From positions 124,001 to 188,000 of the forward strand of contig JAGAIU010000078.1 of the NCBI GenBank assembly GCA_017626395.1: a DNA stretch of 64,000 bases, written 5' to 3'. The DNA comes from Clostridia bacterium (GTDB lineage: Bacteria; Bacillota; Clostridia; TANB77; CAG-465). Positions 5,479 through 57,475 of the stretch are shown here, piece by piece (position 1 is the first letter of the stretch; each line of letters starts with the position of its first letter). The notes under the pieces are model-generated. The model made no database searches, was not told the DNA's origin, and saw nothing but the letters and a program-made list of their open reading frames with translations. A program made the position numbers and the translations under genes.

Positions 5479-5750
5479 ATATTTGAATTAAAAGCAATGA
5501 ACAAGAGGAGTAGAATAGAGGTTATCTGTAGAGAGAAAGACTCAGCGGCTGAAAGGTCTTTTAGAAAAACATATTTGAAGGTAGCTTGGGAGCTGGTATA
5601 CTGAAGTGTGAGCATGTGTAAGTATACTCCGGAACAGTCGGTAAATCTGTAAGTAAGTGCATACAGTAATAAGTATTGTATGAATTAAGGTGGTACCGCG
5701 AATCACAGTCATTCGTCCTTAAATAATTAAGGATTAATGACTGTTTTTTT
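5479..5750 (+). promoter_or_regulatory. Valine T-box riboswitch leader
   Basis: The T-box sequence AAGGTGGTACCGCG is at 5687-5700 and is followed by the competing terminator ACAGTCATT (5705-5713) / AATGACTGT (5736-5744) with a T-run. The Stem I specifier loop, by alignment to the GAA-x-codon-purine pattern of glyQS leaders, reads GAAG-GTA-G with the specifier GTA (Val) at 5581-5583. Uncharged tRNA-Val is expected to pair with GTA and with the T-box, favouring the antiterminator and expression of the two genes downstream. The specifier fits valS as the second of them. Confidence 0.92.
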
Positions 5751-21066: not shown

Positions 21067-21198
21067 AAAAAATGACTAGCTACGGCAAGCTAGTCAATAA
21101 ATACTTATCTTCCGGTTATGCCGCAGGAATTAGCACCTTACCATAAAGCAGGTTGCTGGACTTCATAGGGCCTGTCCCTCAGTCACTCTGGATAAGAT
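21067..21198 (-). promoter_or_regulatory. SAM-I (S-box) riboswitch with terminator
   Basis: On the minus strand the leader runs CTTATCCAGAGTGACTGAGG, then GGCCCTATGAAG and GCAACC, to GATAAG, the standard S-box order; P1 is 21196-21191 with 21109-21104. The terminator is TGACTAGCT/AGCTAGTCA (21096-21073) followed by six T. SAM binding should favour the terminator and turn off metK. Confidence 0.95.
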
Positions 21199-26653: not shown

Positions 26654-26680
26654 AAAAAAATCAACCGTTATGGTTGATTT
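26654..26680 (-). terminator. Terminator after tRNA-Leu
   Basis: Minus strand AAATCAACC, loop ATAAC, GGTTGATTT (26680-26658), then T. Confidence 0.85.
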
Positions 26681-26684
26681 CTAT

Positions 26685-26773
26685 TGGTGGGAATGATCGG
26701 AATCGAACCGATACGAGGTTTAACCCTCGCAGGATTTTAAGTCCTGTGCGTCTGCCAGTTCCGCCACACTCCC
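26685..26773 (-). tRNA. tRNA-Leu (anticodon TAA), copy 1
   Basis: Acceptor GGGAGTG/CATTCCC with encoded CCA (26687-26685), anticodon loop CTTAAAA, a class II variable arm CGAGG-GTTAAA-CCTCG and T-arm CGG-TTCGATT-CCG. Identical to the gene at 31044-31132. Confidence 0.95.
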
Positions 26774-26844
26774 GATGGTTGTTATTTTATCACTTTACAA
26801 TTTCTATGTCAAGTTATAAATCAAAATAACTATAATTTTTTTTG

Positions 26845-31034: not shown

Positions 31035-31043
31035 AATTATTCT

Positions 31044-31132
31044 TGGTGGGAATGATCGGAATCGAACCGATACGAGGTTTAACCCTCGCAGGATTTTAAG
31101 TCCTGTGCGTCTGCCAGTTCCGCCACACTCCC
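31044..31132 (-). tRNA. tRNA-Leu (anticodon TAA), copy 2
   Basis: Same sequence as the gene at 26685-26773, with CCA encoded at 31046-31044 and anticodon TAA, but with different flanks and a different terminator. Confidence 0.95.
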
Positions 31133-31185
31133 GCTTGAACAGTATTTATTTTAACACCTTTATTGTTAAATGTCAATACCTTTTT

Positions 31186-39820: not shown

Positions 39821-41404
39821 TTGAAAAGTAAGAAGGTTGGAATAACATTATTTGTATCCTTGATAATAGCATTTTTTATAGTGCTAGTTGCTGCAGTAAA
39901 TAATATAAACGGGGAACTTAGTGTACAAACTATAAAAATAATATCAAGTACAGATAACCAAGATTTAGAGAGAGTACTTGTAAAGTATGGTGAAGAAAAT
40001 GATATTAATGTAGTCATAGACTATGCTGGAACTCTTGAAATAATGGAAAGATTAAATGCCGGTGAAGAATACGATGCAGTATGGGCTTCTAACTCTATGT
40101 GGTTATATATGTTAGATAGCTCTATAAAAAAATCAGATTCTAAAATTATCAATATGAATCCTGTTGTATTTGGTATTCGTAAGTCAAAAGCAGAAGAGTT
40201 GGGATTTGTAGATAAATCAGTAAAATTACAAGATATTCTAAATGCTATTAATGAAGGAAAGCTAAAATTTGCAATGACATCTGCTACTCAAACTAATACA
40301 GGAGCTTGTGCATATTTAGGATTTTTAACAACACTTTCTGGAAATCCTGAAATATTAACAGAAGAACATTTGCAAAATGAAGATACAAAGACTAATCTAA
40401 TAAATCTTTTTAAAGGTGTAAAGAGAACATCTGGTAGTGAAGAATTTTTAGAAGAGATGTATATTGATGGTGAATGTGATGCAATAGTTACATATGAAAC
40501 ATCAATAATAAATATAAATCAAAATATTGATGATGAAGATGATACAATTTATGCAATATATACAGAAGATGGTGTATCTATGAGTGATTCTGTATTTGCA
40601 TATTTAGGTAAAACTAATACTTTAAAAGAGGATGCATTCTTAAAACTACAATCATATTTACTATCTGATGAAGGACAACAAGAATTAATGAAAACAGGTA
40701 GAAGAGTATGGTATGGTGGAATAAAAGAAGATGTAGATAAAACAATATTTAATCCTGAATGGGGAATAGATACAACAAAATATATTACACCAATTAAATT
40801 CCCTTCAACAGATATAGTGAAAAAAGCTTTAGGATTATATCAATCTGAACTTAGAAAACCAACACATATTCTATTTGCACTAGATTATTCTGGAAGTATG
40901 AGTGGTGAAGGAATAGAAGAATTAACAGCTGCAATGGATTATATATTGACAGAAGAAAAAGCAGCAGAAAATTATTTACAATTTTCTGAAAAAGATAAAA
41001 TAAGTATAATAGCATTTAATAGTATAGTCTCTGAACCAATAACTGTTGAAAATGGACTTGATACAGAAGAATTATTAGAAACAATAAATGAAGGAATACC
41101 TAGAGGTGGTACTAATATATATGACACAGTTTCTGAAGCTATTGAGTATTTAGATTCAGAAGATATGGACACATATAACGTGTCAATCGTTCTTATGACA
41201 GATGGTGTAGGAAATAACGGAAGTTATAGAGAAATGGTAAGTACAATTAATAATGCTGAAAATAAAATACCTGTATATTCAATAATGTTTGGATCAGCAG
41301 ATGATGAACAATTGCAAGATATAGCAAGTTTAACAAGCGGAAAAGTATTTGATGGAAAAACAAATTTACTAGAAGCATTTAAATCTGTTAGAGGATATAA
41401 TTAG
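39821..41404 (+). CDS. Solute-binding domain fused to a VWA domain, membrane-anchored
   Basis: 527 residues: one N-terminal membrane segment (about 6-26), a periplasmic-binding-protein-like module (about 36-320, with KIISSTDNQDLERVLVKYG and VWASNSMWLYML) and a C-terminal von Willebrand A domain with a full MIDAS (DYSGSMS at 355-361, then GGTNIYDTV and MTDGVG). The start is TTG 39821 with GAGGTGG upstream. First gene of a four-gene operon with XpaC, another solute-binding protein and TelA. No ABC permease or ATPase is nearby, so it probably senses rather than imports. Confidence 0.82.
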   Translation: MKSKKVGITLFVSLIIAFFIVLVAAVNNINGELSVQTIKIISSTDNQDLERVLVKYGEENDINVVIDYAGTLEIMERLNAGEEYDAVWASNSMWLYMLDSSIKKSDSKIINMNPVVFGIRKSKAEELGFVDKSVKLQDILNAINEGKLKFAMTSATQTNTGACAYLGFLTTLSGNPEILTEEHLQNEDTKTNLINLFKGVKRTSGSEEFLEEMYIDGECDAIVTYETSIININQNIDDEDDTIYAIYTEDGVSMSDSVFAYLGKTNTLKEDAFLKLQSYLLSDEGQQELMKTGRRVWYGGIKEDVDKTIFNPEWGIDTTKYITPIKFPSTDIVKKALGLYQSELRKPTHILFALDYSGSMSGEGIEELTAAMDYILTEEKAAENYLQFSEKDKISIIAFNSIVSEPITVENGLDTEELLETINEGIPRGGTNIYDTVSEAIEYLDSEDMDTYNVSIVLMTDGVGNNGSYREMVSTINNAENKIPVYSIMFGSADDEQLQDIASLTSGKVFDGKTNLLEAFKSVRGYN

Positions 41405-41415
41405 GAGGTGAGGGA

Positions 41416-42051
41416 ATGAAATTATCGTATTTATTATCAATAATTGTTGGTATTTCATCTTTTTGCCTGCTATATTTAGGACTGGATTTAAATATTATAT
41501 TTAGTATTGTTGTATCGTTAGTAGCATATTATGCTGCAACTATGATATTTAAGGAAAAGAGCGAATACCAACTAGAAATTAATCAAGATTTAGTTCAGTA
41601 TGAAAAATTAATAACAGATGCTAGAGCTAATATAAGAAGATTAGAATTATTAAAAGAAAAAATAGAAAATGTAAGTTTAAGAGCAGACATTACAGATGTT
41701 TGCGATATATCAGACAAAATTTTAACAAGCTTAAAAGAAAATCATAAAAAGACAGGACAAGTAAGAAAGTTTATAGATTATTATTTACCATTTACTTTAA
41801 ATATTTTAACTCAATATAATAAAATTGAAGATCAAGAATTAACATCATATGAAAGCAAAGAATTTATGTATAAAGTTGAAACTATGATTAAAAGAGTTAA
41901 AGAGGCATGCGAAGTACAATTAAATAACATGTATGAAACAGATTTATTAAATACTAATGCAGATATAAAAGTTTTTGAGACAATGTTAAAAACTGATGGA
42001 TTAGTAGATGATAATATGAATATTAAAGTAGAAAAGAAAGTGGGTGAATAA
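41416..42051 (+). CDS. XpaC-like protein
   Basis: 211 residues with two N-terminal hydrophobic segments (about 4-44) and a helical, coiled-coil cytoplasmic part. VRKFIDYYLPFTLNILTQYNKIE is the hallmark of the XpaC (5-bromo-4-chloroindolyl phosphate hydrolysis protein) family, split here as VRKFIDYYLPFTL and NILTQYNKIE. XpaC genes typically neighbour telA, as here. AGGAGGTGAGGG precedes the ATG. Molecular function is unknown. Confidence 0.85.
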   Translation: MKLSYLLSIIVGISSFCLLYLGLDLNIIFSIVVSLVAYYAATMIFKEKSEYQLEINQDLVQYEKLITDARANIRRLELLKEKIENVSLRADITDVCDISDKILTSLKENHKKTGQVRKFIDYYLPFTLNILTQYNKIEDQELTSYESKEFMYKVETMIKRVKEACEVQLNNMYETDLLNTNADIKVFETMLKTDGLVDDNMNIKVEKKVGE

Positions 42052-42052
42052 T

Positions 42053-43207
42053 TTGTCTGGAGTAATTGTTGATGAAACTAGAAAAAAGCCTAATCAAAGA
42101 GTGATAGGTGTTCTAATATTAATATTTTTAGTAATATTAGTTTGTGTTGTAGTAGCACTAAGAAATTCAAATGGTGCTGCAAATAAAGATGCTACTCAAA
42201 TTTATGGAGCAGTAGGTGGAGGAAAAGAAAATCTACTAGACGACGAACAGTTTAAAAGTATCTTAAATGAAAGATATGGAATTAATGTTGTTAATGATTC
42301 TTGGAGTAACGGTAAATTAGTCGTAAATCCTGTAGTAAGAGAAAATGGTGACGGATATGATTTTATATTCTTCTCAGATCAAAGATTCTATGATTATTAT
42401 AAATTAGCAGCAGATCCTACCAAAGGTGAAGCTGAAAGAGAAAGAGTTTTAAAAGGTAACCTAACTTTAAATACTCCTATTGTAATATACAGTTGGGATA
42501 CTGTTGTAGATGCATTGATTAATGAAAATATAGTAACATTGAAAGATGGTGTTTATTATATAACAGATATGGATAAACTGTTACAATATATTTTAGAAGG
42601 AAAAACATGGAAAGAAATAGGTGTTGAAAACTTATACGGAAAAATAAATATAAATTCAACTGACCCAGTTACTTCATCACCAGGTGCAACATATTATGGA
42701 CTATTATTATCTATATTATGCGGTGGAGAAGTAACAGAAGCTAATATAGAACAAAATTTACCAAAATTAAAAGAGTTCTATGAAAAATCTGGATATATGA
42801 ATAATACACCTGCCGATTTATTTGACATATATTTAAAAACTGGTGTTGGAGCACAACCAATGATTGTAGACTACGAAAAAAGTATAATAGACTTTGCAAA
42901 CTCTAACCCTGATGGATATGCTCAAGTAAAAGATAAAATGAGAATATTATATCCTGTTCCAACAATATGGAATTCACACTGTATAGCAACACTAACAGAA
43001 GATGGAAATAAATATTATGAAGCATTCAATGATCAAGAAATACAACAATTAGCTTGGTCTAAATATGGATTCAGAACTGGTATAACTGGTGGAAGTTACG
43101 ACGTTACTAAAGTTGGTGTAACTGGAATTCCACAAACAATAGATACTACAGTATCTGGACTTAGAATAAATATCTATAATAGATTAATAGAATATTTAAG
43201 CGAGTAA
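42053..43207 (+). CDS. Membrane-anchored solute-binding-like protein
   Basis: About 384 residues: a short basic start, one membrane segment (about 18-37) and an extracellular periplasmic-binding-protein-like module with VNDSWSNGKLVVNP, YDFIFFSDQRFYDYY, STDPVTSSPGATYYG and QPMIVDYEKSII. The start is probably TTG 42053 (GGGTGA 5 bases upstream) or GTG 42044, which overlaps the XpaC gene. It is the second binding-protein-like product in this operon and has no transporter partner. Confidence 0.75.
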   Translation: MSGVIVDETRKKPNQRVIGVLILIFLVILVCVVVALRNSNGAANKDATQIYGAVGGGKENLLDDEQFKSILNERYGINVVNDSWSNGKLVVNPVVRENGDGYDFIFFSDQRFYDYYKLAADPTKGEAERERVLKGNLTLNTPIVIYSWDTVVDALINENIVTLKDGVYYITDMDKLLQYILEGKTWKEIGVENLYGKININSTDPVTSSPGATYYGLLLSILCGGEVTEANIEQNLPKLKEFYEKSGYMNNTPADLFDIYLKTGVGAQPMIVDYEKSIIDFANSNPDGYAQVKDKMRILYPVPTIWNSHCIATLTEDGNKYYEAFNDQEIQQLAWSKYGFRTGITGGSYDVTKVGVTGIPQTIDTTVSGLRINIYNRLIEYLSE

Positions 43208-43226
43208 AATTTTTGGAGGTAAAAAT

Positions 43227-44390
43227 ATGGAAAAAGAAAATTTAGTTTTAGAAGTAAAACCTGAAATCTCAACTAAAGAGATAGAAAATGAACTTATTGA
43301 AAATAAAGTGGTAACTGAAGAAAAAATAGAGGATTCTTTAAATTATGATAAATTATCAACAGCAGAAAAAGAAGCTATAGATAATTTTTTAGTAAAATTA
43401 GATCTTACAGACACTACAAATATCTTATCTTATGGTGCTAGTGCACAACAAGAAATTGCAAAATTTTCAGATGATGTATTACAAAATGTTAGAACTAAAA
43501 ATGCTGGAGATGTTGGAGAACTTCTTACAGATTTAGTTGTAGAAATAAAAGATTTTGATAGTGCAACAAATGTTAATGAACCAAAAGGATTCTTTGCAAT
43601 GTTTACATCATTAAAGAAAAGAGTTCAAAAATTATTATCTAAATATGATAAAGTAAATAATAACATAGATAAAATAGAAAAAAGACTTGAAAATCATAAA
43701 ATGCAAATGTTAAAAGATATTGCAATATTTGATGAAATGTATGAAAAAAATATGGATTCATTTAAAAATATATCTTTATACATTATCGCTGGAGATAAAA
43801 AAATAAAAGAATTAAAAGAAGTAGAATTACCAAAACTACAACAACTTGCTCAAGAGAGTGGAGAACAACTTGATGCTCAAAAAGTAAATGATTTAATGGC
43901 AGTTATTTCTAGATTTGAAAAGAAAATCTATGATTTAAAAACTACTAGAATTATATCTATCCAAATGGCTCCACAAATTAGAATGATTCAAAATAATGAT
44001 AGTGAATTAGTAGAAAAAATCCAATCTTCTATTATTAATACAATTCCTTTATGGAAAAACCAAGTAGTTATTGCTTTAGGTCTTGCAAATGCTAAAAGTG
44101 CTTTAAATACACAACAAGCTGTAAGTGAAATAACTAACGAAATGTTAAAGAAAAATAGTGAAAATTTAAAACAAGGAACAATAGAAATTGCAGCTGAATC
44201 TGAAAAAGCTATTGTTGATGTTGAGACACTTCAAAAAACAAATAGTGATTTAATTGCAACATTAGATGCTTTAATTCAAATACATGATGAAGGAACTAAA
44301 AAACGTTCTGCAGCTGAAATTGAATTACAAAAAATTGAACATGAACTTAAAGAAAAATTACTTGCAGTTAAAAATGAGCAACAACAATAA
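43227..44390 (+). CDS. telA: TelA toxic-anion/tellurite resistance family protein
   Basis: 387 residues of the TelA/KlaA (YceH) family: helical throughout, with SYGASAQQEIAKFSDDVL, GDVGELLTDLV, MLKDIAIFDEMYEKN, QMAPQIRMIQNND and TIPLWKNQVVIALGL, all family signatures. TelA proteins are linked to tellurite and envelope-stress resistance and are often encoded with XpaC and VWA proteins. TGGAGGT precedes the ATG. Last gene of the operon before a strong terminator. Confidence 0.92.
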   Translation: MEKENLVLEVKPEISTKEIENELIENKVVTEEKIEDSLNYDKLSTAEKEAIDNFLVKLDLTDTTNILSYGASAQQEIAKFSDDVLQNVRTKNAGDVGELLTDLVVEIKDFDSATNVNEPKGFFAMFTSLKKRVQKLLSKYDKVNNNIDKIEKRLENHKMQMLKDIAIFDEMYEKNMDSFKNISLYIIAGDKKIKELKEVELPKLQQLAQESGEQLDAQKVNDLMAVISRFEKKIYDLKTTRIISIQMAPQIRMIQNNDSELVEKIQSSIINTIPLWKNQVVIALGLANAKSALNTQQAVSEITNEMLKKNSENLKQGTIEIAAESEKAIVDVETLQKTNSDLIATLDALIQIHDEGTKKRSAAEIELQKIEHELKEKLLAVKNEQQQ

Positions 44391-44420: not shown

Positions 44421-44450
44421 AAAAAGATAGTTCTAAGAACTATCTTTTTT
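44421..44450. terminator. Bidirectional terminator
   Basis: AAAAGATAGTTCT with AGAACTATCTTTT around a one-base centre (44422-44448), A-run and T-run on the flanks. Confidence 0.9.
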
Positions 44451-45471
44451 AGTTATATTCATCTGATATATTACCTAGTATTTCTTCTATTGCATCCTCT
44501 AAAGTAATAAGTCCAACCGTTCTGTTTCCATTTTTTACAATAGCCATTGCATGTTTAGATTGTTGCATTTCTTTAAATACTTCATCTACTTTATCATCGT
44601 GATTTACGAAATATGCTTCACGAACAAGTTTTTTGATATCAAATTTAGATTCTCTAGAATATTGCATTATTAAATCTTTAACTACTAGTATACCAACAAT
44701 ATTATCTAATTTATCTTTATATACTGGTATTCTAGAATATTTACATGTTTTAATTACATTTAATAGTGCTTTTTCACTTATATATGTATCAACAGCAATC
44801 ATTTTTTCTCGAATAGTCATTACTTTTTCGGCAGTGGTATCATCAAACTTAAATATATTTAGTAACATTGTTTTTTCCGTACTGTCAATTATTCCTTCTT
44901 CTTTTCCTTTTGAGATAATTGAAATAATTTCTTTTTCTGTTAGTTTTTCTTCATTATCTATTTGAATCTTGAATATTTTACAAATAAAACTTGTAGATTT
45001 TGTAAGTAGCCATACAAATGGATATAATATTTTTTCAAGTATATAGATTATATTTACTACTAGGTATGAGATTTTTTCGGGATAAGCTAAAGCTATTCTT
45101 TTGGGTAATAGTTCACCTAGTACTAGTGTGAAAAATGATAGTACAAGTGTTACTAAAATTATTGTTACTGTTTCTAGTATAGATGCTGAAATTGTTATGT
45201 ATGGTGAAATTACCGTTACTATATCTTCAGCGATAGTTTCAGCTGCAAAAGCACTAGATAAAAATCCTGCTAAAGTTATACAAATTTGAATCGTTGCAAG
45301 AAAACCACTAGAATTATCTAACAATTTCTTTATTCTTTTAGCTTTCTTATTTTCTTTTTTTATATTATCTTCTAGTTCTAGCTTGTTTATTGATACAAAA
45401 GCCATTTCAGAAGCAGAAAAAATTCCGTTTAAAATTATGAGTAATAAAAGTATTAAAATCTTTATTAACAT
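44449..45471 (-). CDS. CorC/MpfA-type DUF21-CBS membrane protein, short
   Basis: 340 residues: a DUF21/CNNM transmembrane domain (about 1-165, with GIFSASEMAFVSINK and GELLPKRIAL) and a CBS pair (about 190-335, with KYSRIPVYKDKLDNIVGI and AMAIVKNGNRTVGLITLEDA). The usual C-terminal CorC_HlyC domain is missing; the protein ends right after the second CBS. Relatives such as MpfA export magnesium. GGAGG precedes the ATG. It lies about 4 kb from the OLE RNA/oapA locus. Confidence 0.9.
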   Translation of the reverse strand: MLIKILILLLLIILNGIFSASEMAFVSINKLELEDNIKKENKKAKRIKKLLDNSSGFLATIQICITLAGFLSSAFAAETIAEDIVTVISPYITISASILETVTIILVTLVLSFFTLVLGELLPKRIALAYPEKISYLVVNIIYILEKILYPFVWLLTKSTSFICKIFKIQIDNEEKLTEKEIISIISKGKEEGIIDSTEKTMLLNIFKFDDTTAEKVMTIREKMIAVDTYISEKALLNVIKTCKYSRIPVYKDKLDNIVGILVVKDLIMQYSRESKFDIKKLVREAYFVNHDDKVDEVFKEMQQSKHAMAIVKNGNRTVGLITLEDAIEEILGNISDEYN

Positions 45472-47187: not shown

Positions 47188-48090
47188 ATGGAACTTAACA
47201 AGGTGATAGAGAAAAAGCTTACAGCAGAGCAAAAAAATGAATTTGAGCGTGACGATGGTAAGTTTAAATTGTTGAAAAACATAATCATCTTACCAATTGT
47301 AACAGCTATATTAGGAATTTATTTAGAATCTATTTTAATAGTTACAATAAGTGTACTATTTATAATTGCATTTTTAGTAATTAGTGTATATGCTTCAAGT
47401 AGAAAAAACAAAATATATGAGAATGTTATAATTCCATATGTACTTGAAGAAAAATTTGATAATGTAGAGTATGTAAAATCTGATGTATCTTTAAAAGAAG
47501 AATTTATAAACTCTAGACTTGCACCAGAATGCGATAAAATAGAATGTAGTAATTATTTTAGATTAATAGAGGATAAATATTTTGTTGAAATTTGCAAAGT
47601 TGTAACAAATAAATTAGATGTTGAAGAAAATGATGGAGTAATAGACAAAAATTTAGAACAAAATTTTTCAGGGGTATTTGCGCGCGTTAAACTACCTAAT
47701 AAATTTAATGTAAATTTTAAAGCTATAAAAAACATTAAAGATTATGGAAATATAAATGTAGATAAAAGTAGTACAGAGCAATTAAAAATGAATAATTTAG
47801 AATTTGACATGAATTATGATATTTTTTCAATGGAGCCTGTATCTTTAAAAAGGAGTTTATCTCCAGGAGTACTAGCAAGAATACTAGAAATAAATAGAAA
47901 ACTAGATAATGTTATTAGTTTTTCTGTTTATGATAATGTATTATATGTAACACTAGAATATGAAAAATTTTTAGAATTTAAAGGAAATGGAAAAAATTAT
48001 GTAGATGAAGAATTAGCGGTTCAAAATCTAGAAGTTTTAGAATATATAAATTACTTTATACGATATTTTGTTAATATGACAGTAGTATAA
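47188..48090 (+). CDS. DUF3137-family membrane protein
   Basis: 300 residues with two N-terminal hydrophobic segments (about 28-47 and 50-68) and a soluble C-terminal part. EEFINSRLAPECDKIECSNYF, FSGVFARVKLPNKF and DNVISFSVYDNVLYVTL fit the DUF3137 pattern (a family of uncharacterised membrane proteins). GGGGGAGA precedes the ATG. Function unknown. Confidence 0.72.
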   Translation: MELNKVIEKKLTAEQKNEFERDDGKFKLLKNIIILPIVTAILGIYLESILIVTISVLFIIAFLVISVYASSRKNKIYENVIIPYVLEEKFDNVEYVKSDVSLKEEFINSRLAPECDKIECSNYFRLIEDKYFVEICKVVTNKLDVEENDGVIDKNLEQNFSGVFARVKLPNKFNVNFKAIKNIKDYGNINVDKSSTEQLKMNNLEFDMNYDIFSMEPVSLKRSLSPGVLARILEINRKLDNVISFSVYDNVLYVTLEYEKFLEFKGNGKNYVDEELAVQNLEVLEYINYFIRYFVNMTVV

Positions 48091-48126
48091 AAAAGCTATT
48101 AGAATAAATTTTCTAATAGCTTTTTG
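48091..48126. terminator. Bidirectional terminator
   Basis: AAAAGCTATTAGAA (48091-48104) with TTCTAATAGCTTTT (48111-48124); serves the DUF3137 gene and oapA. Confidence 0.9.
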
Positions 48127-48130
48127 TTTT

Positions 48131-48709
48131 TTACTTTTTATCACTTTTTTTATTTTTCTTAATAGTAAATATATTTAAAATTCCTGTGAATTTATCTACT
48201 ATTTGTGTACTATATTTTTGTGCTGTCACCTTGAAGTTGGCTTTACCACCAATTGTAAGAGCTGCGATTATAGCACTAATTATAACTTGTAAATCAAAAT
48301 TTAAGTTATAATATGTTGTTATTTTCATAGCTACTATTGCACCAATACCACCACTAAGAATACCACATACGTCACCAATAACGTCGGCACATATACTTGA
48401 TACTTTAGGAGCATTACGTATTAATTTTATTGATGTTTTAGCACCATCAAGTTTTCTACTTGCTTTTGCATGGAAATCCTTTTCCTCTGCAACTGTAACT
48501 GCCATAGATATCATATCAAAAATAATACCCATAGCTATAACTAAAAGTAGTATTAGTATAGCAATAGGAATTGGTAGACTATTAACAGTTAATGTAGTAA
48601 TGAAAGTAAAGATTATTGAGAGTGAAAAAGATAACAGAGAAACTGTTATCACCCATTTACTCGACGAGTCTTTTTCTTTATCATTACTTTTTGAATCTTT
48701 CGATTTCAT
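48131..48709 (-). CDS. oapA: OLE-associated membrane protein OapA
   Basis: 192 residues with four hydrophobic segments (about 19-42, 46-72, 107-130 and 138-158) and the conserved middle part GIIFDMISMAVTVAEEKDFH / AKASRKLDGAK / IRNAPKVSSICADVIGDVCG, which I recognise as OapA, the membrane protein that binds OLE RNA. ATG 48709 has GTGAGGG upstream; a TTG at 48739 is also in frame. The 600 bases upstream are non-coding and highly structured, exactly where OLE RNA is encoded in other Firmicutes. The protein-RNA complex localises to the membrane and affects Mg2+, alcohol and cold stress in Bacillus halodurans. Confidence 0.85.
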   Translation of the reverse strand: MKSKDSKSNDKEKDSSSKWVITVSLLSFSLSIIFTFITTLTVNSLPIPIAILILLLVIAMGIIFDMISMAVTVAEEKDFHAKASRKLDGAKTSIKLIRNAPKVSSICADVIGDVCGILSGGIGAIVAMKITTYYNLNFDLQVIISAIIAALTIGGKANFKVTAQKYSTQIVDKFTGILNIFTIKKNKKSDKK

Positions 48710-48739
48710 TATTTTTAATTCCCTCACTTTATTAAACAA

Positions 48740-49342
48740 TATAATAAAGATGGTGATTTTTTAAGTAAATACTATGGTTTAGGTCTAGTAGAATTTCTCT
48801 ATTTTCTACTAAATATTACTATTTAGCCGTTTCCGTTTAAAGAAAACACTCCACAGTCGCCTGTAAGAGAACTAGATCGCCACTTAAGTCCATACTTTAA
48901 TCCTTAAAAAATCTCATTCCTCAATTAGAATAAACATTCTAGAAGTTTTCCTTTGGTGTGCACTTGTACAATTATTAGTCTCTTTTGCAACGATAATTTC
49001 ATTACCAGATAAAAAATACATATGGCCATACACATTTTTCATCTTTTTAACGGGTAAATCCCAATATCCTCACTCAAGACAGGCTACACTACATATTGTG
49101 TCTTGGCACGCAATGTAGGTTATACTAAAAGACTCTAGCATTATATTTAGAATCAGTTAGCCTCCACGAAAATAGGAGAAGTAATTATATGCCGTTATAA
49201 TCATTCCTAAATTCTTTACTCCCTGAAAACACGCAAGACTGGGCGTTTCGCGCATTGACAAGAAACTTCATCGGTATGCCTTTTAGTGGATTTTTAGCCC
49301 CACCCTCATAAAAGTTAGCGCAACTAGAATAATGCACCATCA
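48740..49342 (-). ncRNA. ole: OLE (ornate, large, extremophilic) RNA
   Basis: About 600 nt, matching the roughly 610-nt length of OLE RNA, starting just downstream of a strong minus-strand promoter and ending at oapA. It is GC-richer than neighbouring intergenic DNA and has no open frame. Blocks that look conserved are AGGGTGGGGCTAAAAATCC with CACTAAAAGGC (about 49308-49280), AATGCGCGAAACGCC (about 49255) and paired segments such as TTTAGTAGAAAATAG / CTACTAGACC near the 3' end. Identification rests on size, position upstream of oapA, strand and promoter; sequence match is from memory. The 3' end is approximate. Confidence 0.8.
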
Positions 49343-49348
49343 ACGAAT

Positions 49349-49377
49349 ATTATAACATAACGTTTTTGAAAAAGCAA
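49349..49377 (-). promoter_or_regulatory. Promoter of the OLE RNA-oapA transcript
   Basis: Minus strand TTGCTT (49377-49372), 17-base spacer, TATAAT (49354-49349); transcription should start near 49342. Confidence 0.85.
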
Positions 49378-49503: not shown

Positions 49504-50484
49504 ATGGCAAGAAGGAAAAAAATTAAAAACAATTCAACAGTACAAGTAATAATAGGGATAATAGCTTTTATCTTTATTATGATAATTGGAAATAATCATG
49601 ATTTAGATTTACTGGAATCATTAAAACAAGCAACTGAAGTAGATTCACTAGAAAAGGTTGAAAATGTGGATAATACAGATAAACAAACTACAACTTCAGT
49701 AAATGGAAATTTAATAATAGATTATATAGATGTTGGACAAGGAGATAGCATATTAATTCGTCAAGGAGAAGCGACAATGCTAATTGATGGTGGAACAAGC
49801 GAATGTAAAGATGATTTATTAGATTTTTTAGAAGCAGAAAAAGTAGATAAATTTGAATACATTATTGGTACACATCCACATGAAGATCATATAGGAAGTT
49901 TAGATGATGTTGTAAATTCTTATGATTTTGACACTATACTTTTTCCTAAAGTAACATCAACAACAAAAACTTTTGAAAATTTAGTTTTAGCAGTACAAAA
50001 TAAAGAGAAAAAATTTACTACACCAGTAGTTGGAACAGAGTATTCTTTAGGTGAAGCAAAATTTGAAATTTTAGCACCTAATAGTAGTAAATATACTTCT
50101 ACAAATGATTATTCTATAGTTATAAAATTAACTTATGGAAAAAATACTTTCTTATTCACAGGTGATGCAGAATCGTTATCCGAATCAGAAATGTTAGATA
50201 AAAATATAGATGTTTCAGCAGATGTTTTAAAACTTGGACATCATGGCTCAACTACTTCTACATCTATGAATTTTTTAGAAGCGGTATCTCCAAAATATGC
50301 TGTAATATCTGTTGGTAAAGATAACTCATACAAACATCCAACTAAAACAACAATGAACAAATTGGAAGATATGGAAGTACCTGTGTATAGAACAGATGAA
50401 CAAGGAACAATAGAATGTATAAGTGATGGTTTAAATATTACATTTAATGTTGAACCTGGAACTTATGCATATATGAATGAGTAG
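49504..50484 (+). CDS. ComEC/Rec2-like metallo-beta-lactamase-fold hydrolase
   Basis: 326 residues, one N-terminal membrane segment (about 13-29) and an extracellular metallo-beta-lactamase domain of the ComEC C-terminal type: DVGQGDSILI, HPHEDHIG (124-131), FTGDAE and LKLGHHGS. Free-standing versions are probably secreted nucleases or phosphodiesterases. ATG 49504 has AGAGGTGG upstream; the GTG at 49480 does not. A TATAAT at 49474-49479 precedes it. The DUF3006 gene follows. Confidence 0.88.
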   Translation: MARRKKIKNNSTVQVIIGIIAFIFIMIIGNNHDLDLLESLKQATEVDSLEKVENVDNTDKQTTTSVNGNLIIDYIDVGQGDSILIRQGEATMLIDGGTSECKDDLLDFLEAEKVDKFEYIIGTHPHEDHIGSLDDVVNSYDFDTILFPKVTSTTKTFENLVLAVQNKEKKFTTPVVGTEYSLGEAKFEILAPNSSKYTSTNDYSIVIKLTYGKNTFLFTGDAESLSESEMLDKNIDVSADVLKLGHHGSTTSTSMNFLEAVSPKYAVISVGKDNSYKHPTKTTMNKLEDMEVPVYRTDEQGTIECISDGLNITFNVEPGTYAYMNE

Positions 50485-55393: not shown

Positions 55394-55425
55394 AGGCTTG
55401 CCTGAAGGAGGTGAGTATAAAATAC

Positions 55426-55944
55426 ATGTTAAAATATTTCCTTTTTATCATCGTATTTCTTAACTTATTTTATATAAAAGAAGTTGATGATATTTCTCCA
55501 ATCAATTTAAATCAAAATAATTTTAATTTGTATAAATCAGAAAAAGTTTTTATTCATAATGAAGATGAATGGTATTTAACAATACCAAAAGTCAATCTAA
55601 ATAATATCCCAATAAAAGATGGTATAGAAAATGATATATTAGAAAACTATATAGGACATTTCCCTTTTAGTTCCTTTTTAGAAGGTAATGTTTGTTTAGC
55701 AGCTCATAATAATGGTTATAAAAATAATTATTTTAAAAATATTAATATGTTAGAAGTCGGCGATGAAATATATTACCATTATTTTAATATAGAAAAAATT
55801 TATATTGTAAAAGATAAATACATAATCGATGAAAAAGATTTCCTTTCTTTAGAAGAAGATAACAACCAAAAATTAACTTTAATAACATGTATAGATAACT
55901 CACCTCATGAAAGGCTTTGTATTCAAGCTATTAGTAAGGAGTGA
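55426..55944 (+). CDS. Sortase (class D-like)
   Basis: Membrane-anchored transpeptidase that links surface proteins to the cell wall or to each other. One N-terminal membrane segment (about 3-16). The catalytic residues are H94 (LAAHNNGYKNNYF), C155 (LTLITCID) and R163 (HERLCIQA); TLxTC fits classes C and D and the small size fits D. GAAGGAGGTG lies upstream; ATG 55426 is preferred to the GTG 55411 that is part of it. The adhesin gene follows 4 bases after its stop. Confidence 0.9.
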   Translation: MLKYFLFIIVFLNLFYIKEVDDISPINLNQNNFNLYKSEKVFIHNEDEWYLTIPKVNLNNIPIKDGIENDILENYIGHFPFSSFLEGNVCLAAHNNGYKNNYFKNINMLEVGDEIYYHYFNIEKIYIVKDKYIIDEKDFLSLEEDNNQKLTLITCIDNSPHERLCIQAISKE

Positions 55945-55948
55945 AAAA

Positions 55949-57475
55949 ATGGGAAAAATATATAAATATACCAATATAGTTTTGGAAACAATACAAAGAA
56001 ATAATAGAAAAATTAATGCAATAATTAGAAGAAGCCAAATTAGAAGAATTAAAGTATATATAATGCTACTAGGTATAATCATTTCAGTAATAAATCCAAT
56101 ATATGCTATAGATGAAAAAGAATGTAGAGTATTTTGCAGAATAGATGATAAAGTATACGTAAAATATGCTGGCAATCCGCAACCTAATTATGAGTATTAT
56201 TATAATATAGATAATAGAGAATTACCGATATATTGTGTAAATCTTGGAATGAAAGGTGCAGAAGCAGAAAAAGATGGATATGTGGTAAATGTAAAAAATA
56301 GCATTGCAGATGAAAAATTAAAAGAAATTATTTTTCAATGCTATCCGTACCAATCACTAGAAAAACTAGGAGTAGACACTATTGAACAAGCAAAATTTGC
56401 TTCTCAATTTGCAATTTGGATATATACTGCAAATTTAAATCCTGAACTTTTAGAACCAATGTATCCTGAATATAAAAATGTTGTAGAAGCAATAAAAAAT
56501 ATATATTATTTTGGTATGAATAGTAATAACAGAATATTTAATTTAACTGTAAGTGAACAAAGAATTGAAAATATAAATGGCGAGAGTTTTTATATTAGAG
56601 AAATTGAGCCAACAGATAAATATTATATGGATTACATGAAAGTAATAGCCCCTCAAGAAAGTTCTAGCATAATAAAAAATAAAGATGGATATAAAATATG
56701 TGTACCTGTTGATACTGTGGATGAAGGTTATCAAATAGATATAGATATTGAATTTGCGAATAAGGTTGCACTATATGGGGAATCTACAAAAGAAGGATTT
56801 CAAGATGTAATAATTACTGTAAAAGAAGAAGTAGCTTTAAGAGAAACATATATTATTCCTTTTGAAAATATGAAAAGTAAAGTTACAATAGTAAAGAAGG
56901 ATAAGGACACAAATACTGCAATAGAAGGGATAAAATATGAAATTCGAGACGAAAACCATAAAGTAATAGGTGAGTATAAAACAGATGATAATGGTAAAAT
57001 TGAATTAGAAGTATTAAATACAAAAAATATTTTTGTAAAAGAAATAGAAGCAGCGGATGAGTATGTTTTAGATAACAACACATATAATTTCAGTTTAAAT
57101 ACTACATTTGAAAATATTTTTGAATTATATAATGTAAAAAAGACGGGGAATATAAAAATAATTAAAAAGACAAAAGAGTACAATGAGTTAACTGGCTTAA
57201 AAGAAAATATGCCTCTACAAAATGTTTCTTTTTATATTTATGATCAAAATATGAATTTAATAGATGATGTTACAACGGATGAATTTGGTTGTGCAATTAC
57301 TAAAAGAATTCCTGTTGGTAAGTATTATATAAAAGAGTATAAAACAAATGAACATTATCAACTATTAGATGAACTAATAGAAGCTGAAATTATAGAAAAT
57401 GATGATATAACAAACATTGAAATATTAAATAACAATGTGGATATTCCTAAAAAATTACCAGTAACTGGAAGATAA
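55949..57475 (+). CDS. Thioester/Cna_B surface protein ending LPVTGR
   Basis: 508 residues and the apparent substrate of the sortase next door. An N-terminal export segment (about 37-54) follows a long basic start. LPIYCVNLG and FASQFAIWIYTAN look like the Cys and Gln of an internal thioester domain that can bond covalently to host targets. Two prealbumin-like Cna_B/SpaA modules follow (about 315-400 and 402-495). The protein ends KKLPVTGR-stop: the sorting pentapeptide is present but the usual hydrophobic anchor and positive tail are absent, and no frameshift restores them. ATG 55949 has AAGGAG upstream. Confidence 0.85.
   Translation: MGKIYKYTNIVLETIQRNNRKINAIIRRSQIRRIKVYIMLLGIIISVINPIYAIDEKECRVFCRIDDKVYVKYAGNPQPNYEYYYNIDNRELPIYCVNLGMKGAEAEKDGYVVNVKNSIADEKLKEIIFQCYPYQSLEKLGVDTIEQAKFASQFAIWIYTANLNPELLEPMYPEYKNVVEAIKNIYYFGMNSNNRIFNLTVSEQRIENINGESFYIREIEPTDKYYMDYMKVIAPQESSSIIKNKDGYKICVPVDTVDEGYQIDIDIEFANKVALYGESTKEGFQDVIITVKEEVALRETYIIPFENMKSKVTIVKKDKDTNTAIEGIKYEIRDENHKVIGEYKTDDNGKIELEVLNTKNIFVKEIEAADEYVLDNNTYNFSLNTTFENIFELYNVKKTGNIKIIKKTKEYNELTGLKENMPLQNVSFYIYDQNMNLIDDVTTDEFGCAITKRIPVGKYYIKEYKTNEHYQLLDELIEAEIIENDDITNIEILNNNVDIPKKLPVTGR

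Follow-up and report, generated by a model that had tools for sequence, protein, structure and literature searches.

The membrane-bound OLE RNA is one of the largest structured RNAs of bacteria among those without an assigned biochemical function. A criterion for its partner protein, OapA, is binding to OLE RNA in a ratio of at least 2:1; that OapA binds OLE and anchors it at the membrane has been shown in Halalkalibacterium halodurans and in E. coli as a surrogate. OLE has been catalogued in 2,822 Bacillota genomes, including variants from two uncultured gut clades, TANB77 and RF39, in which OapB and OapC are mostly missing, and OLE variant 1 is common in the TANB77 clade (PMC11332333). In H. 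halodurans, OapB binds the P12.2/P13 region of the RNA (PMC9723947, PMC12265935), and bS21 is also reported to bind OLE (PMC12054373). Across Bacillota, OLE anticorrelates with MpfA, a protein with CNNM, CBS and CorC domains (PMC11332333).

The OLE RNA and its oapA gene

The window, a 64,000-nt stretch of DNA from a Clostridia assembly, carries an OLE RNA gene and an oapA gene on its minus strand, preceded by a promoter:

48734..49356, minus strand: OLE noncoding RNA, matching the full RF01071 model (1-616), with covariation
48131..48709, minus strand: oapA, 192 aa from the ATG at 48709; membrane protein with a CNNM-like fold and a DxxxD motif (D109-D113)
49349..49377, minus strand: ole promoter; −35-like TTGCTT (49377-49372), 17-nt spacer, −10 TATAAT (49354-49349)

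The RNA was originally predicted from a gap of about 600 nt without an open frame, and this gap proves to hold a full-length OLE RNA. A search of the minus strand with Rfam RF01071 matches model positions 1-616 at 379.1 bits (E 7.7e-108), far above the gathering threshold of 50. The start of the model lies a few bases 5′ of the likely transcript start near 49342. OLE is present as a single copy in the genome (a 1.99-Mb assembly in 78 contigs, 98% complete).

The RNA retains the conserved loops and helices of the model, with standard pairs at 140 of the 154 aligned model pairs. We collected 25 OLE sequences, drawn from the family of the window organism and from related gut Clostridia, aligned them with MAFFT rather than with the model and transferred the Rfam structure onto the alignment. 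Standard pairs fill 87.1% of the 3717 cells, versus 73.6% in shuffled alignments and 41-46% with slid partners. Changes on both sides occur in 101 of the 154 model pairs, the double-changed cells number 528 versus 176 in shuffles, and the covariation score of the alignment is 0.424 versus 0.188. Judged from the aligned sequences, the OLE structure is under selection here.

oapA lies directly downstream of ole on the same strand. As predicted, its product has long hydrophobic helical segments and the hallmarks of OapA. Specifically, AlphaFold2 predicts bundled long helices with a mean pLDDT of 74.5 (residues 10-44, 47-82, 91-134 and 140-165, with a C-terminal helix at 167-189), matching the four transmembrane spans and about 190 residues expected of OapA; hydropathy shows strong peaks for two helices and weaker ones for the others. 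The motif D109-V-I-G-D113 is invariant across a 38-sequence OapA alignment, and DxxxD sets OapA apart and does not occur in CNNM domains (PMC11332333). The best PDB matches of the model are to the archaeal CNNM protein MtCorB (7m1t/7m1u), with probability 0.9-1.0, E 0.05-0.18 and a modest TM score of about 0.4; the same match is reported for H. halodurans OapA (PMC11332333). The CNNM profile is reached at E<=1 by 25 of the 38 OapA members, with a best value of 2.7e-5. Searches of the window OapA against curated Pfam and NCBIfam models and, by sequence, against solved structures gave no significant match and no match, respectively.

The Pfam and NCBIfam copies used contain no curated OapA profile, and a profile was built from our own 38-sequence alignment. 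Among the 36 genomes of the family, this profile finds OapA exactly in those that bear OLE: the two occur together in 24 and neither occurs in 12 (Fisher p 8e-10, relatedness ignored). Eighty OapA relatives come from genome assemblies of Clostridia, for the most part uncultured and in many cases of animal-gut origin by record title, and all 12 relatives scanned for RNA families have a full OLE upstream of oapA. By the profile, the DxxxD motif, the CNNM-like fold and the exact co-occurrence with OLE, the window product is OapA. Together with the RNA match, this confirms the locus as a genuine OLE RNA-OapA gene pair in a gut Clostridia lineage.

The locus shares with full-length OLE (RF01071; H. 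halodurans, Clostridium acetobutylicum) complete model coverage, the helices, an upstream promoter and oapA directly downstream, but differs in its very A+T-rich stems, its score of 379 bits and a genome without OapB and OapC. It shares with OLE variant 1 its occurrence in gut Clostridia assemblies, the missing OapB and OapC and a score within 310-390, a range obtained with a different model and thus indicative only. Unlike variant 1, which often lacks the nucleotides of the OapB site, it has retained both hairpins, P12.2 and P13, and their GNRA-type loops. The likeness to MpfA and CorB (CNNM-CBS-CorC Mg2+ exporters) lies in the CNNM-like fold of OapA and in a CNNM-CBS gene near ole-oapA, whereas OapA lacks CBS domains and has DxxxD, and the neighbouring CNNM-CBS protein lacks CorC/HlyC. 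The original prediction implied that OLE in a mesophilic gut organism is a surprise; earlier work has already reported OLE from gut anaerobes that are not extremophiles (PMC11332333). The window organism resembles the TANB77/RF39 gut clades, and the locus is an ordinary member of the published OLE class.

OapB, OapC, bS21 and their binding regions

The description of the locus as part of a complete OLE ribonucleoprotein holds for the OLE RNA and OapA, but not for OapB and OapC, neither of which is detected in the genome or the family. For OapC, an L7Ae/YbxF family search puts no protein over the cut-off in any of the 36 family genomes, the window genome included, while the same search detects the B. 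subtilis protein. For OapB, the only KOW proteins of the window genome are ribosomal L24 and NusG. As we doubted the KOW Pfam family as a detector, we built a dedicated OapB profile from genes in the map-infA interval of three class members, one of which matches the PDB OapB structure 7k9b at E 3.2e-9. This profile finds nothing in the window genome and only weak matches among the 36 family genomes (E 0.003 or worse), mostly in long or broken frames.

The hairpin loop at the OapB-binding region is nevertheless kept: the P13 loop is GNRA-type, and RNA positions G538, A540 and A541 are invariant in the 25 sequences although OapB is absent. P12.2 is shorter by 12 nt in three of the aligned loci (L098, L099, L103) and altered in five (L008-L012). 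If the P13 loop makes a tertiary contact or serves a different binder, its retention without OapB would be accounted for. Another reading is that the searches overlooked OapB and OapC and that the complex has the full H. halodurans composition; in favour of it are the conserved loop, the fast divergence of small proteins and an assembly that, at 98%, is not closed. We consider this highly improbable: no convincing OapB appears in 36 family genomes with a profile whose source protein is recognized as PDB OapB, the L7Ae family is absent from all 36, and both proteins are also mostly missing from the gut clades TANB77 and RF39 described earlier (PMC11332333).

bS21, in contrast to OapB and OapC, is encoded in the window genome (G000:C21:157886-158044), and it is found in 35 of the 36 family genomes, whether or not they carry OLE. 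In P6, the pair at alignment columns 155-187 is G-C in all 25 OLE sequences and that at columns 154-188 in 20 of them; these are probably the G-C pairs that bS21 needs in H. halodurans.

The same contig, C21, carries the ribosomal spc operon (locus L175), which is interrupted behind secY: the continuation seen in other class members (L176, L177), with adk, map, the OapB slot and infA, is missing there.

Proposed transcription and function

The original prediction placed a near-consensus promoter at the 5′ end of ole. Its −10 hexamer is indeed perfect and is kept in place in nearly all of the 25 aligned relatives, but the −35-like element has only 3 of 6 consensus matches. Because the −35 is poor, the pair is missing from the list of a stricter generic promoter scan. 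Two hairpins lie further along:

48090..48125, plus strand: hairpin resembling an intrinsic terminator, located where oapA and the DUF3137 gene converge, with A/T flanks on both sides
48630..48650, minus strand: hairpin and T-run (TTTTT) in the 5′ part of oapA, in the closest relatives only

The first hairpin is predicted to be usable as a terminator in both directions, since it is A/T-flanked on both sides, and a hairpin at this place is also found in relatives and in sites that lack ole-oapA. The second is found in 4 of 62 relatives tested; its position is common to L002, L086 and, with other sequence, L006/L007. It might conceivably act as an attenuator that separates ole from oapA, or simply reflect the conserved sequence coding for ITVSLLS.

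In our interpretation, the locus very probably makes a functional OLE ribonucleoprotein of a reduced, gut-lineage type. A single transcript started at the ole promoter would give the OLE RNA of about 600 nt, followed directly by the OapA mRNA. OapA, as a CNNM-like membrane protein, would bind the RNA and anchor it at the membrane, and the resulting particle would help the cell through stress, probably via the handling of divalent metals. The particle of this lineage would work without the accessory proteins OapB and OapC. bS21, whose P6 G-C contacts are apparently kept, may supply the conformational switching that is otherwise shared with OapC.

The position of ole on the same strand immediately upstream of oapA and the strict co-occurrence of the two are also what one would expect if the RNA were only a long structured 5′ leader controlling oapA in cis, and not part of a free-standing ribonucleoprotein; the early hairpin and T-run in oapA could then attenuate in the closest relatives. 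However, that hairpin is confined to few of the relatives, the window RNA retains the model helices and conserved loops, and in H. halodurans the OLE RNA is abundant, has OapA, OapB, OapC and bS21 as binding partners and acts as a ribonucleoprotein (PMC12265935, PMC9723947, PMC12054373), making a cis leader highly improbable. A lineage that does without OapB and OapC indicates the minimum of components with which the OLE RNA is still retained.

Presence and absence of the ole-oapA cassette in relatives

Three neighbouring genes frame the comparison with related genomes:

47188..48090, plus strand: DUF3137 protein (PF11335); left border of the ole-oapA cassette, collinear in relatives
49504..50484, plus strand: MBL-fold, ComEC C-terminal-like hydrolase (PF00753, partial TIGR00361); right border of the cassette, collinear in relatives
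44449..45471, minus strand: CNNM and CBS protein, MpfA-like without the CorC/HlyC domain; the genome has no other strong CNNM gene

The closest relatives keep the order SigK, small protein, ComEC-like hydrolase, ole-oapA, DUF3137, pentapeptide protein, M23 peptidase and CNNM-CBS. In this comparison, loci L002-L007 are the same records as genomes G020, G025, G016, G006, G014 and G001, each being seen twice. Genomes G008, G009 and G013 have clean empty sites, in which the flanking genes are collinear and ole-oapA is gone as one unit. The gap between the DUF3137 and hydrolase genes is 104-112 bp in these three, with a terminator hairpin and the hydrolase promoter, versus 1363-1444 bp in most of the relatives with OLE, two of which have a gap of about 3 kb instead. 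Loss in assembly is ruled out as the cause of the empty sites because the gaps lie within contigs.

In a tree of NusG, L11 and L1, G009 and G013 fall inside OLE-bearing species (support 0.93), and G007, G011 and G012 each fall beside an OLE-bearing species (0.93, 0.98 and 0.93). The simplest reading of these placements would be repeated loss of the cassette in relatives, and regain of ole-oapA by transfer is a possible alternative; ole and oapA would be gained or lost as one cassette. The absence of the cassette from several relatives shows that life in at least some gut habitats does not require the ole-oapA particle, and near relatives with a clean presence or absence of ole-oapA are natural knockouts for comparative genomics. 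It is highly improbable that the window locus is itself a decaying relic heading for loss: the relatives without ole-oapA, empty sites included, and the absence of OapB and OapC would fit, but the RNA is full-length with compensatory changes throughout, oapA is intact with invariant motifs and the −10 element is conserved.

A candidate for a decaying ole in G010 was rejected; the fragment is ended by the contig end (54,022 bases), and the oapA of that genome is intact.

The CNNM-CBS gene lies 2.7 kb downstream of the oapA end and is syntenic in close relatives. Its product has no match to the CorC/HlyC domain and so falls outside the definition of MpfA as CNNM, tandem CBS and CorC/HlyC. A compensating rise of CNNM-CBS genes in OLE-free genomes is not seen: the genus means are 1.18 in OLE-bearing and 1.27 in OLE-free genomes (p 0.55, relatedness uncorrected), and the three genomes with empty sites keep a single copy, that of G009 being cut by a contig end. 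No CNNM-CBS compensation is visible within the genus, the genes counted not being MpfA by the published definition. As far as our searches reached, the empty sites and the lack of genus-level CNNM compensation are additions to the published picture rather than new biology.

OLE-OapA in this gut genus may be a minimal two-gene particle that needs neither OapB nor OapC, in which the conserved P13 loop does something other than bind OapB and which has been lost repeatedly as a cassette without extra MpfA-like genes; if so, MpfA substitution would not be a general price of OLE loss. We put this combined proposal forward tentatively, with slightly more doubt than confidence.

Several other features were recorded in the window. 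A plus-strand run of four genes (39821-44390) encodes a VWA/solute-binding protein, a Halogen_Hydrol (XpaC-like) protein, an unknown 387-aa protein and a TelA family protein; parts of this run adjoin the ole locus in L004 and G024. A T-box leader (5488-5723, plus strand) and a SAM riboswitch (21102-21198, minus strand) both score above their Rfam gathering scores. The tRNA-Leu(TAA) gene is present in two copies (26677-26774 and 31036-31133), 97% identical over 98 nt and 4.4 kb apart. On the plus strand at 55411-57475, a sortase gene is followed by one whose product is a surface protein carrying SpaA and thioester (TED) domains, possibly a covalently anchored adhesin pair.
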